Origin: Cyanobacteria bacterium M_surface_10_m2_119
Lineage (GTDB): Bacteria > Cyanobacteriota > Cyanobacteriia > PCC-6307 > Cyanobiaceae
NCBI GenBank assembly: GCA_016882525.1
Contig: VGPU01000001.1
Location: 141,378-191,980 of the forward strand
Reading direction: 5' to 3'
DNA length: 50,603 nucleotides
This document shows, piece after piece, positions 10,760 through 18,789 of this stretch; position 1 is the stretch's first letter, and each line of letters starts with the position of its first letter. A model generated the notes under the pieces. It made no database searches and was not told the origin of the DNA. It saw only the letters and a list, made by a program, of their open reading frames with translations. A program made the translations under genes and the position numbers.

Positions 10760-12685
10760 GTGGTGCTGCAGGCCGAGCAGGGTCAGATCCAGATCCACAC
10801 CGAGAACATCTTTCCGATCATCAAGAAGGCCGTCTACAGCGGCCATGAGGTGTTCCTGCGGGAACTGGTGAGCAACGGCGTCGATGCCATCAGCAAGCGG
10901 CGCATGGCGGCGATGGCCGGCGACTGCAGCGATGGCCCCGAGGGGCTGATCCAGATCCGCATCGACCGGGAGGCCAGGACGCTCACCATCTCCGACAACG
11001 GCATCGGCATGGACGCCGAGGAGGTGAAGCGCTACATCAACCAGGTGGCCTTCTCGAGCGCCGAGGATTTCCTGGAGAAGTACAAGAGCGAGAGCGACGC
11101 CATCATCGGCCATTTCGGCCTGGGCTTCTACTCCAGCTTCATGGTGGCCAAGCAGGTGGAGCTGGTGACCCGCTCCGCCCGCGAGGGCAGCGATGCGGTG
11201 CGCTGGAGCTGCGACGGCTCCCCCAACTTCAGCCTGGAAGCCGCCGAGCGCAGTGAACCTGGCACCGATGTGATCCTCCATCTGATGGAGGAGGAAGAGG
11301 AATACATCGAGCCAGCCCGCATCCGCACCCTGATCACCACCTACTGCGATTTCCTGCCGGTGGCAGTGCAGCTGGAGGGCGAAACGGTGAACAAGCGCGA
11401 GTCGGCCTGGCGCAAGAGCCCGCGCGAGCTCAGCGACAACGACTACATCGAGCTCTACCGCTACCTCTACCCCTTCCAGGGCGACCCGCTGCTGTGGGTG
11501 CACCTCAACACCGACTATCCCTACAACCTGCAGGGCATCCTCTATTTCCCCAAATCCACAGGCCGGGCCGACTGGGAGAAGGGCGAGATCAAGCTCTACT
11601 GCAACAACGTGTTCGTGAGCGACTCGATCAAGGAGGTGGTGCCCCGCTACCTGCTGCCCCTGCGCGGCGTGATCGATTCGCCGGACATTCCTCTCAACGT
11701 GAGCCGCTCGGCCCTGCAGACCGACCGCCGGGTGCGCTCGATCGGCGGCTTCGTGGCGAAGAAGGTTGCCGATCGGCTCAAGCAGCTGCACCGCGACGAA
11801 CCGCAGCGTTACGCCGAGATCTGGGAATCCCTGGCCCCGTTCATCAAGATCGGCGCCATGGAGGACGAGAAGTTCGCCGAGCAGGTGGCGGATCTGGTGC
11901 TGTTCGGGACCACGGCGGCGCCTATGGAAGGCGAGCCTGCCGAGGGTCAGAGCCTCGACCCCATCCCCGGGCCTGATGGAAAGGCCTTCACAACCCTGGC
12001 CGGCTATCGCTCGCGCCTGGAGGCCGGCAACGACAAGCGAATCCTCTACTGCAGCGATGAAGCGGCCCAGGCCGGGGCACTGGCCCTGTGGAAGAGCCAG
12101 GGGGCCGAGGTGCTGCTGGCCGACACCTTCATCGACACCCAGTTCATCCCCTGGCTGGAGTACCGCCACGAGGATCTCAAGTTCCAGCGTGTCGACAGCG
12201 AACTCGACGACTCTCTTCAGGAAAAGGAGAACGAGCTGGCCGATGCCGATGGCAAGGACGCCAGTGAGAAGGTGCGTGAGTTGTTCAAGAAGGCCCTGGC
12301 CAACGACAAGATCACCATTCAGGTGCAGGCCCTCAAGGGCGACAACGCCCCCGCCGCCCTGATCCTGCTGCCGGAGCAGATGCGCCGTCTCAATGACATG
12401 GGAGCCCTGATGGAGCAACGCCTGCCGGGCCTGCCCGACCACCACGTGCTGCTGGTGAACCGCAGGCACCCGCTGGTGGAGGGGCTGCTGAAGCTCTCGG
12501 CCGGATCGGTGATCACCGGCGCCGGCGGCGGCAACTCCCCCAGCCAGCAGCTGGCCGACGACCTCAGCCGCCACCTCTACGCGCTGGCCCGCCTGGCGGT
12601 GGGCGGCCTGGAACCGAACCAGCTGGCTGGCTTCCAGCAGCGCAGCGCCGATGTGATGGGCCGGCTGATGGAGCGGGGGCTCTGA
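10760..12685 (+). CDS. htpG: Hsp90-family chaperone HtpG
   Basis: A 641-residue cytoplasmic Hsp90. The GHKL ATP-binding domain carries FLRELVSNGVDAI, ISDNGIGMDAEEV and GHFGLGFYSSFMVAK; the middle domain has YPYNLQGILYFPKS and PDIPLNVSRSALQ with the catalytic-loop arginine; the C-terminal dimerisation domain is present (LLVNRRHPLVEGLL). The usual SNASDA is SNGVDA, as in other picocyanobacterial HtpG. Full length for the family. Start is GTG (10760); the GTG one codon later is equally possible. HtpG in cyanobacteria is linked to heat and light stress. Confidence 0.96.
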   Translation: MVLQAEQGQIQIHTENIFPIIKKAVYSGHEVFLRELVSNGVDAISKRRMAAMAGDCSDGPEGLIQIRIDREARTLTISDNGIGMDAEEVKRYINQVAFSSAEDFLEKYKSESDAIIGHFGLGFYSSFMVAKQVELVTRSAREGSDAVRWSCDGSPNFSLEAAERSEPGTDVILHLMEEEEEYIEPARIRTLITTYCDFLPVAVQLEGETVNKRESAWRKSPRELSDNDYIELYRYLYPFQGDPLLWVHLNTDYPYNLQGILYFPKSTGRADWEKGEIKLYCNNVFVSDSIKEVVPRYLLPLRGVIDSPDIPLNVSRSALQTDRRVRSIGGFVAKKVADRLKQLHRDEPQRYAEIWESLAPFIKIGAMEDEKFAEQVADLVLFGTTAAPMEGEPAEGQSLDPIPGPDGKAFTTLAGYRSRLEAGNDKRILYCSDEAAQAGALALWKSQGAEVLLADTFIDTQFIPWLEYRHEDLKFQRVDSELDDSLQEKENELADADGKDASEKVRELFKKALANDKITIQVQALKGDNAPAALILLPEQMRRLNDMGALMEQRLPGLPDHHVLLVNRRHPLVEGLLKLSAGSVITGAGGGNSPSQQLADDLSRHLYALARLAVGGLEPNQLAGFQQRSADVMGRLMERGL

Positions 12686-12693
12686 CACCCGCT

Positions 12694-12723
12694 CCAGGGC
12701 TGCAGCCATTGCTGTAGCCCTGG
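12694..12723 (+). terminator. Strong hairpin after htpG, without a T tract
   Basis: A 12-bp stem with one G-U pair (CCAGGGCTGCAG / CTGTAGCCCTGG) and a 6-nt loop begins 8 nt after the htpG stop. It lacks a following T run, so it may be a 3' stabiliser or a weak terminator. Confidence 0.5.
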
Positions 12724-12797
12724 GCATCAATCGCAGGGTGACTGCCTAGTTCTCGCTATACAGTTGGTGCAGCGAAGCGGTAGCAGACAGAACAGCG

Positions 12798-13408
12798 ATG
12801 GGCCTGCGCACGCTGGTGGTCGAAGACCAACTCATGTTTCAGGAGTTGCTGGTCGGGATGCTGCGCAGCCAGACCTCCCTTGGGGACGTGGCCACAGCCG
12901 GCACCGCCGCCGAAGGCATCGCCGCCTGCGCCAGCCTTCGGCCCGACCTGCTGATCTGGACATTGCGCTGCCGGATGCGGAGGGACTCACCGTGGCCAAG
13001 GCCCTGAAGGTGCTCAACCCCGAGGCCAGGGTGATCGTGCTCTCCAGCCATGCGAGCACCTTTCTGCGCCCACCCGAGCTGCGCGACACGATCTGCGCCG
13101 TGATTGACAAGGCCCGGGCCTTCGAGGAACTGCTCCAGGAGATTGCGGCGATCACTGGCATGGCCTACTCGGGCCAGGCGGATGATGGCCAGCTGCCGCG
13201 CGAAGCTCTGGCCCAGCTCACCCAGCGGGAGCGTCAGGTGCTCGAGCGCATGGGGAGGGGAGAGAGCAACAAGACGATGGCCGAGGAGCTGGCCCTTTCA
13301 GTGCGCACGGTGGAATCGCACCGCCGCAATATCGCGACCAAGCTCGGTTGCAGCGGTGCCCGCCTGATCCGTATCGCCACCCTGCTCCAGCAGCGGGTCG
13401 ATTGGTGA
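12798..13408 (+). pseudogene. NarL/LuxR-type response regulator with a frameshift at the phosphoacceptor
   Basis: Two overlapping frames together make one ~204-residue response regulator. Frame A starts at ATG 12798 (MGLRTLVVEDQLMFQELL) and gives the first half of the receiver domain including the acidic pair E9-D10, ending its homology at RPDLLI; it stops at 13007. Frame B, +2 relative to A, continues with LDIALPDAEGL (Asp of LDI is the phosphoacceptor), IVLSSHAS, the conserved Lys in VIDKARAF, and a C-terminal LuxR helix-turn-helix (LTQRERQVLERMGRGES, MAEELALSVRTVESHRR). One base appears to be missing near 12954-12958 (GATCTGG where GATCCTGG would restore the frame). This may be a sequencing error, a real inactivating mutation or a programmed shift. 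Frame B alone has no convincing start. Confidence 0.85.
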
Positions 13409-13493
13409 TCCGGTTCGGGGGAGGGGGCCGATTGATACACTCGACCCCGAGCAGGTTCCCATTGCTCGTCCGTCATTCATCAGGTTGTAGGTC

Positions 13494-13730
13494 ATGTCCC
13501 GGGTCTGCCAGCTCACCGGCAAGCGCGCCAACAACGGCATGGCCGTCTCGCACTCGCACGTGCGCACCAAGAAGCTGCAGCAGGTGAACCTTCAGGAACG
13601 CCGTCTCTGGTGGGCTGAGGGCAATCGTTTCATCAAGCTGCGGGTCTCCACCCGTGCCCTCAAGACCATCCAGAAGAAAGGGCTTGGGGCCTACGCCCGC
13701 GAACTCGGCATCAACCTGGCCAAGATCTGA
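13494..13730 (+). CDS. rpmB: 50S ribosomal protein L28
   Basis: A 78-residue basic protein starting [20 protein letters not shown], the L28 signature of the large ribosomal subunit, with [18 protein letters not shown] and a C-terminus rich in Lys/Arg. Length is typical. A possible promoter element (TTGATACACT, 13431-13440) lies ~55 bp upstream. The peroxiredoxin gene starts 9 nt after its stop and may be co-transcribed. Confidence 0.97.
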
Positions 13731-13739
13731 CCAGCAGCC

Positions 13740-14333
13740 ATGCAACGCCGCGCGATCCTCAATGGTCTGGCGGCCCTAGTCCCGGCTGCAGCCGGGATCT
13801 CCAGCCTGTTGGCCTTTGGCCGGCAGGCTGTTGCACTGGGCGGCACCCTGCCCGAGATCGGGGAGCCGGCACCTGCCTTTGCCCTTCCTGGCGTGATGCC
13901 CAGCAGCAGCGGCGAACCGGCTGAAACCACCCTCTCGCTATCGGATTGGGCAGGCCGATGGCTCGTGCTCTATTTCTACCCCCGCGATTTCACCGGTGGC
14001 TGCACCCTGGAGGCCCGGGGCTTCCAGCAGGATCTGGAGGCTTTCCACCGGGCTGGAGCCGACGTGGTGGGCATCAGCGCCGACGACCCGGACTCCCACG
14101 CCTCGTTCTGCACTGAGGAAGGACTGGTGTTCCCCCTGCTGAGCGATCCCGGAGGTGCCGTGAGCCGCGCCTATGGCTCCTGGATCGCTCCCTTCTCGCA
14201 GCGGCACACCTTCCTGATCGACCCGAAGGGGGTCCTTCAGGCCCGCTGGGTGGCCGTACGGCCGGTGGGGCACAGCCAGGAGGTGCTCAACGCGCTGCGG
14301 GACCTGCAGGCGACCACGGGCGCCAGCGCCTGA
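13740..14333 (+). CDS. PrxQ/Bcp-type peroxiredoxin with export signal
   Basis: A 197-residue thiol peroxidase that reduces hydroperoxides. The N-terminal ~33 residues form a signal peptide with a twin-arginine-like start (QRRAILNGLAALVPAAAG) and a likely cleavage after AVA, so it probably acts in the periplasm or thylakoid lumen. The peroxidatic cysteine is C88 in DFTGGCTLEA. The resolving cysteine of classical PrxQ, five residues on, is absent (EARGF); C124 is the only other candidate. FPLLSDPGGAVSRAYG is a family hallmark. Follows rpmB by 9 nt. Confidence 0.9.
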   Translation: MQRRAILNGLAALVPAAAGISSLLAFGRQAVALGGTLPEIGEPAPAFALPGVMPSSSGEPAETTLSLSDWAGRWLVLYFYPRDFTGGCTLEARGFQQDLEAFHRAGADVVGISADDPDSHASFCTEEGLVFPLLSDPGGAVSRAYGSWIAPFSQRHTFLIDPKGVLQARWVAVRPVGHSQEVLNALRDLQATTGASA

Positions 14334-17421: not shown

Positions 17422-18413
17422 GCCGGGGGCTCCTCCAGAAATCCCTGCTGGAAGAGGCGGCCGATCAGCTCCTCGATCGGCGGCTCATTCACCTCCAGAT
17501 CAAGCACAGGGAGATCAGCCAGGAGACGGTTGAGGCAGGCGGGCACCCTGTCGCGACCGATCAACAGCCAGGCTGCCGCGCCATCGAGCCGCTCCACCTC
17601 GCCATACGGAGCCAGCCGCTCGGCCGGGACCGGCTCCGCCAGTTCAAGACGCACCTGGCGCCAGGGAGCCAATCGTTCGCGCAGGGTATCCAGCCCACCG
17701 TCGTAGAAGAGGGCGCCCTGGTGGATGAGCAGAACACGTGGACAGAGGGCGGTGATGTCAGCCATGTAGTGGCTGGTGAGCAGCACCGTGGCACCGGTGC
17801 GCTGGTTGTAGTCGGCCAGGAAACGGCGCACCCGTGCCTGGGCATTGACATCGAGGCCGAGGGTGGGCTCATCGAGGAACAGCACGCGCGGGCGGTGGAG
17901 AAGGGCCGCCATCAGTTCGGCCTTCATCCGCTGCCCCAGCGAGAGCTTGCGCACGGGTCGGGTGAGTTCCTCTCCCAGCTCGAGCATGTCGGCCAGCTCG
18001 GCGATGCGGCGGCGCGCCTCGCTGTCGTCGATGCCGTAGACCGCCGCATTCACCCGCAGGGAATCCAGGGGAGGCAGATCCCAGATCAGTTGCTGTTTCT
18101 GCCCCATCACCAGGGTGATGGCCTCGAGGAAGCGGCGCTGGCGGCGCCAGGGCTGGCAGCCTGCCACCTCCAGCACGCCGCCCGTGGGATGGATCAGACC
18201 ACTCAGCAGTTTGAGGGTCGTGGTCTTGCCTGCCCCGTTGCCCCCGAGAAAGCCCACCACCTCACCGGGCTCGATCTGGAAGCTCACCTGGCGGACGGCC
18301 TCGACGTCCTGCCACCGGCGCCGCAACAGATGACGGAGGGTGCCGGCCAGCCCAGGGTCCTTGGCCGCCACGCGGAACGATTTACGCAGGCCCTGCGCCG
18401 TGACGATCGCCAT
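17418..18413 (-). CDS. ABC-2 type exporter ATPase
   Basis: A 331-residue ABC ATPase. Walker A is GGNGAGKTT, the Q-loop is at VMGQKQQLIW, the signature is the variant KLSLGQRMKAEL, and Walker B is VLFLDEPTLGLD; the H-loop His is in LLTSHYMADI. The C-terminal ~75 residues form an extra domain of the type seen in drug/polysaccharide ABC-2 ATPases. It heads the minus-strand operon ATPase-permease-permease-zinc ribbon-csaB and is divergent from the DUF2499 gene. The context suggests an envelope component as cargo, but that is inference. Confidence 0.92.
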   Translation of the reverse strand: MAIVTAQGLRKSFRVAAKDPGLAGTLRHLLRRRWQDVEAVRQVSFQIEPGEVVGFLGGNGAGKTTTLKLLSGLIHPTGGVLEVAGCQPWRRQRRFLEAITLVMGQKQQLIWDLPPLDSLRVNAAVYGIDDSEARRRIAELADMLELGEELTRPVRKLSLGQRMKAELMAALLHRPRVLFLDEPTLGLDVNAQARVRRFLADYNQRTGATVLLTSHYMADITALCPRVLLIHQGALFYDGGLDTLRERLAPWRQVRLELAEPVPAERLAPYGEVERLDGAAAWLLIGRDRVPACLNRLLADLPVLDLEVNEPPIEELIGRLFQQGFLEEPPA

Positions 18414-18471
18414 GGCCGCAGCCTATCGGCCACGGCCATGCTCCATAGAGTGCGCCCAGCTGTCGCAGCCC

Positions 18472-18789
18472 ATGCACGCCCTCTCGTTGCCCACCTGGTG
18501 GATTCACATCACCTCGGTGCTGGAGTGGGTGGTGGCCATGGCGGCTGTGATGCGCCTGGGCCGCCGGCGCGGCGAGCCCGGCTGGCGCTGGCTCGCCCTC
18601 GCCATGCTCCCGGCCCTGGTGAGTGCCATGTGCGCCTGCACCTGGCATCTCTTCGACAACGCCACCAGCCTCAAGGGGCTGGTGGTGCTCCAGGCGGCGC
18701 TCACCACCGCGGGCAACGGCGCCCTGGCCCTGGCGGCCTGGCGGCTCCTCAAGAATCAACAGCGTGGGGAGGAAGCCGCCCGTGGCTGA
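18472..18789 (+). CDS. DUF2499 (Ycf49-like) membrane protein
   Basis: A 105-residue membrane protein starting MHALSLPTWWIHITSVLEW, the signature start of DUF2499, a family restricted to cyanobacteria and plastids (Ycf49-like). About three hydrophobic segments are visible. Function unknown; probably thylakoid. The open frame extends upstream, but the ATG at 18472 matches the family start. Its stop overlaps the GTG start of the DUF3593 gene, and these two families commonly sit side by side. Confidence 0.87.
   Translation: MHALSLPTWWIHITSVLEWVVAMAAVMRLGRRRGEPGWRWLALAMLPALVSAMCACTWHLFDNATSLKGLVVLQAALTTAGNGALALAAWRLLKNQQRGEEAARG

Follow-up and report, generated by a model that had tools for sequence, protein, structure and literature searches.

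Probable recent inactivation of an accessory NarL/FixJ-type response regulator gene by a one-base loss in a Cyanobiaceae genome

The window analysed here, a 50,603-nucleotide stretch of contig VGPU01000001.1 from Cyanobacteria bacterium M_surface_10_m2_119, carries between htpG and rpmB a NarL/FixJ-type response regulator gene whose two halves lie in different reading frames. We consider it probable (about 0.6) that this is an accessory regulator without an adjacent kinase gene that was inactivated very recently, in this strain or population, by the loss of one base. Both this figure and the lower weight that we give to a sequencing or assembly error are judgements with no computation behind them. 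The features of the locus are listed below.

10760..12685, + strand: htpG (Hsp90), the upstream neighbour
12798..12956, + strand: 5′ half of the response regulator, 53 codons, with the acidic pair E9/D10; 87%, 77% and 72% identical to the orthologues in genomes G212, G180 and G140, respectively
12957..12958, + strand: the break, 2 nt in place of the one codon found in three intact orthologues
12959..13408, + strand: 3′ half, 149 codons plus stop, with the phospho-acceptor Asp, the remainder of the receiver and a GerE (LuxR-type) helix-turn-helix
12992..12994, + strand: possible internal GTG start in the frame of the 3′ half, with GGAGG (12979–12983) 8 nt upstream; speculative, from sequence only
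13005..13007, + strand: premature TGA stop of the frame that begins at ATG 12798, giving a 69-aa product
13494..13730, + strand: rpmB (ribosomal protein L28), the downstream neighbour, 85 nt from the regulator
13740..14333, + strand: AhpC/TSA-family peroxiredoxin (bcp-like)

A regulator gene divided between two frames

From the ATG at 12798 the 5′ half reads MGLRTLVVEDQLMF...RPDLLI, with its last base at 12956, and the 3′ half reads DIALPDAEGL...QQRVDW in another frame (12959–13405, stop codon 13406–13408), its first residue being the phospho-acceptor Asp. Both halves are open except at the break, and the window copy has no single open frame running from the start codon into the helix-turn-helix. 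The active-site residues are nevertheless all encoded across the two frames, namely E9, D10, the Asp, the Ser of the VLSS run and the Lys of IDK. The GerE/LuxR-type helix-turn-helix (PF00196) was matched in the 3′ half at 4.6e-16 (58.6 bits, cut-off 23.5), and the receiver (PF00072) matched this half alone only in part (26.2 bits against a Pfam cut-off of 30.2); the 5′ half alone gave no Pfam match at E ≤ 0.001. The preliminary description had placed the halves of a NarL/LuxR-type regulator in different frames, with the break just before the Asp and the remaining receiver and helix-turn-helix residues kept, and both statements were borne out.

The comparison with close relatives that had been proposed there was carried out using the 3′ half as a query on 300 genomes of the family, the source genome included. 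Relatives at about 80% identity were found in three other genomes (G212, G140 and G180), the next best being at 56% and below. The window copy is 79–81% identical to these orthologues in the 3′ half and 72–87% in the 5′ half, and the tblastn E-values for the 5′ and 3′ halves, respectively, were so low (1.4e-26 and 1.8e-72 in G212, 1.8e-23 and 2.3e-76 in G140, 7e-25 and 1.7e-72 in G180) that the two-half match is not due to chance. In all three orthologues a single open frame spans the gene, the gap between the two halves measuring exactly one codon, and the ancestral frame from which a frameshift pseudogene would depart was therefore seen in every intact close orthologue. The G212 orthologue has a receiver domain (PF00072) at 4.4e-16, and its best NCBIfam matches (MctR, a PRK15369 model, FixJ and NarL) all score well under the curated cut-offs of these models. 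G180 and G212 were taken to correspond to L052 and L053, respectively, and both named records with a close relative of the gene are Cyanobium MAGs.

A ribosome starting at ATG 12798 would add 16 out-of-frame residues to 53 native ones before reaching the stop at 13005. The predicted 69-aa product would lack the phospho-acceptor Asp, the active-site Ser and Lys and the whole DNA-binding domain, for which reason the regulator would be null. Most likely, then, the window copy makes no working protein. Programmed −1 (or +2) ribosomal frameshifting, an option raised in the preliminary description, would instead join the halves into a full regulator. The two frames do overlap, the 3′ frame being open from 12686 and the ATG frame to 13005, and the 91 nt at 12945–13035 fold slightly better than shuffled sequences, if not significantly so (z −1.57, 16 of 200 shuffles at least as good). 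However, an X_XXY_YYZ heptamer is absent from 12764–13007, homology to the orthologues confines the shift to a single codon, the shift occurs in none of these three, and 12600–13600 contains no Rfam match at gathering score. The missing slippery site and the open frames of all three orthologues contradict recoding, which we regard as very improbable.

The 3′ half might still be translated, either from GTG 12992 as an internal start or by re-initiation close to the premature stop, into a protein with the DNA-binding domain and no phospho-acceptor Asp, but this is unlikely. GTG 12992 is preceded by the GGAGG motif and has its first base 13 nt ahead of the premature stop; a further GTG at 13010 lies 2 nt after that stop. 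On the other hand, the same stretch in G180 also reads GCGGAGGGG, and the motif may merely follow from Ala-Glu-Gly codons; no promoter-like match was found in 12600–13560 by scans that are weak for cyanobacteria; and the lesion was found in one genome. It is doubtful that the frameshift cuts the gene in two, into a receiver stub ending at 13005 and a 138-residue DNA-binding protein from the overlapping GTG 12992, although such a two-part gene would be a case of a regulator without an adjacent kinase turning constitutive in one step. A terminator-like match at 12817–12829 (chance mean 0.3) was disregarded.

Age of the lesion and history of the htpG–rpmB slot

Selection was compared between the window copy and the intact copies by a test that is weak, in that YN00 gave a value for one pair only and the NG86 dS of 0.58–1.25 is high for short sequences. 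Pairs with the window copy had NG86 dN/dS values of 0.16, 0.26 and 0.22 in the 5′ half and 0.19, 0.17 and 0.12 in the 3′ half, against 0.19, 0.21 and 0.45 (5′ half) and 0.28, 0.22 and 0.22 (3′ half) among the intact copies. The window pairs (0.12–0.26) therefore fall within or below the range of the intact pairs (0.19–0.45), although individual values overlap, the window–G180 value for the 5′ half (0.26) exceeding two of the three intact pairs. In a regulator tree of 32 rows, in which the grouping of the four copies was supported (99/98) and the order inside the group was unsupported, the window branch was the shortest of the four (0.062, compared with 0.17, 0.31 and 0.34 for the orthologues). 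Neither relaxed selection nor a further lesion was seen in the window copy (NG86 dN/dS; both halves). An old pseudogene is rejected on account of the low dN/dS and the short branch, and the lack of relaxed selection together with that branch means that the break, if real at all, arose very recently. This agrees with the earlier view that decay, if real, was very recent, as do the three intact orthologues. Missing relaxed selection and the missing second lesion are to be expected if a real lesion is very recent, and a sequencing error would look equally so.

The regulator stands between htpG and rpmB in 4 of the 13 genomes of the genus, the source genome included, and can be called accessory because its presence in the slot is limited to these four. 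Eight of the 13 have htpG and rpmB with no regulator between them, and G203 gave no rpmB match. The order in G140 and G180 (htpG, regulator, rpmB, bcp-like gene) is identical to that in the window. In G212 the regulator has company in the slot, a ParA-like gene on its htpG side and a kinase gene on its rpmB side. The slot appears to be a place where genes come and go.

Three further observations were made on these genomes. The G212 slot (L053 378–4212) holds all three genes, the ParA/CbiA-like gene in antisense orientation, the regulator and the histidine kinase gene. The slot of G221 (78% complete; among the eight genomes without the regulator) is occupied by another, apparently broken gene at L095 1734–2600, split over two frames, which we take to resemble a small mechanosensitive channel gene. 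G140 has a paralogous regulator (L054 about 18348–18722) in which the receiver is kept and a stop precedes the helix-turn-helix, with a kinase of the family about 2.3 kb away.

The gene directly after the G212 regulator encodes a 788-aa protein with an HATPase_c match (1.5e-16) and a HisKA match below cut-off. No histidine kinase gene is found beside the window regulator, where the 85 nt gap to rpmB leaves no room for a kinase of the G212 type. Neither this difference from G212 nor the accessory status of the gene had been noted in the preliminary description. Outside the genus, a matching kinase domain was present within 1.5-kb flanks at 8 of 13 tested regulator loci (from 23 fetched), misses meaning little with flanks of this length; the regulator–kinase pair is thus probably ancestral, and the adjacent kinase would have been lost here rather than gained in G212. 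The source genome has other kinases of the family at C8, C3, C42 and C14, of which the C42 kinase adjoins an intact paralogous regulator and the C14 candidate matches the sensor part only. A cognate kinase among these was not accepted, since in the kinase tree no firm grouping joins any of them to the G212 kinase (82/79, open fork).

The C3 orphan kinase is interrupted between sensor and transmitter by an in-frame TGA with an ATG directly after it (L142 4091–4093), and its relative in G180 (on C90) is also broken, by a frameshift. Matches to the C3-type sensor occurred in 2 of the 13 genus genomes, G000 and G180, both of which carry the regulator. That the C3-type kinase is broken by different lesions in both is suggestive only in its bearing on the cognate kinase. 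The in-frame stop in the C3 kinase, a second signalling gene of the same family, supports recent loss of the regulator. Since G140 and G180 retain an intact regulator with no adjacent kinase gene, orphaning alone does not doom the regulator; orphaning may have made its loss tolerable. Real loss also fits an accessory gene, as that is where loss is expected.

Sequence error as an alternative

An assembly error had likewise been suggested in the preliminary description. The gene would then be whole in the cell and the base simply dropped from the draft sequence, which we hold to be possible rather than probable. It is favoured by the state of the assembly, a draft of 118 contigs (2.62 Mb, 99.9% complete, 2.66% contamination), and by the intact and constrained remainder of the regulator gene. 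The part of PMC12007338 available to us describes long-read deletion errors that occur mostly after homopolymers of 2–8 nt and, in a small share of cases, at bases that are not repeated. However, 12930–12990 contains no homopolymer of 4 nt or longer, and the break hits an accessory gene.

The frequency of frame changes was surveyed by comparing 430,603 bases of the source genome (the window and 19 other stretches) with ORFs, picked by tblastn score, in 800 kb of G140, a relative whose genome is complete. This covers genes common to the source genome and the sampled quarter of G140, and favours breaks well within shared genes, so that those near gene ends may be missed. Among 190 genes (60,619 aa) there were seven candidate frame changes, two of them genuine, in the regulator gene and in cobN. 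The latter is broken outside the window at an 18-C run (L079 12528–12545; C1:92528–92545 of the source genome), which is the only run of at least 14 C in the source genome, G140 having none. The cobN break reflects an error or else a tract of unstable length, and is more easily read as one of these than as a real loss; as a second frameshift in the same assembly it counts in favour of error at the regulator as well. With this one other genuine frameshift in 190 genes, and that at an 18-C run, the assembly is not riddled with indels as a whole. In the compared part, ordinary sites rarely carry an indel, the regulator break being the only genuine one of its kind, and an error-ridden assembly is rejected. 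The suggestion of an assembly error therefore keeps its place, at a probability lowered by the scarcity of other frameshifts and by a site with no homopolymer of 4 nt or longer.

The other five candidates (L061/L090, L186/L085, L173/L091, the rpmB–bcp junction and window 36.7–37.1 kb) were artefacts of ORF choice, caused by antisense ORFs or by stop-to-stop extension upstream of the real gene; that at L173/L091 was recognised as such because the break lies upstream of the LysR helix-turn-helix. A first survey, with ORFs chosen by length, yielded six candidate frame changes among 47 genes but not the regulator break, and the other places that it flagged were again ORF-choice artefacts. Thirteen candidates obtained against five other genomes included the regulator once, the rest being better-conserved continuous opposite-strand ORFs or gene junctions. 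Comparisons among other genomes produced similar raw candidate counts, the G155-to-G072 comparison, for example, yielding 6 among 51 genes. Separately, we noted at window 36.7–36.85 kb a conservation that extends across reading frames in both G140 and G155; this stretch may be non-coding RNA, and the gene before it is presumably purK-like.

Significance and comparison with known systems

Taken as recent loss, in which the base would be truly missing in the cell, the break would be a snapshot of a regulator being lost, with other stages visible in the genus: a regulator with a kinase gene (G212), an intact orphan (G140 and G180) and a broken orphan (the window). Should the sequence be wrong instead, the case is a warning for automatic pseudogene calls. 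Neither outcome would surprise a specialist. Literature searches turned up nothing that we recognised as dealing with this regulator gene.

The window gene shares with NarL/FixJ (LuxR-type) response regulators a GerE helix-turn-helix and the encoded active-site residues, with a receiver match that stays partial and below cut-off in the 3′ half, and differs from them in a coding frame that is broken before the phospho-acceptor Asp. The Cyanobium orthologues in G140, G180 and G212 occupy the same htpG–rpmB slot, with the frame open where that of the window copy is broken. Many orphan two-component genes are reported from marine bacteria, Prochlorococcus included, in the accessible part of PMC6365647; the orphan response regulators described there have no adjacent kinase gene, like the window regulator, but are discussed in that part as functional genes, whereas the window regulator is frame-broken. 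As in ordinary single-base frameshift pseudogenes, and in the gene-fragmenting indel errors treated in the available portion of PMC12007338, a single gene is split here by one base with both halves conserved; the indel errors of that source are linked to homopolymers, and the window site has none of 4 nt or longer.
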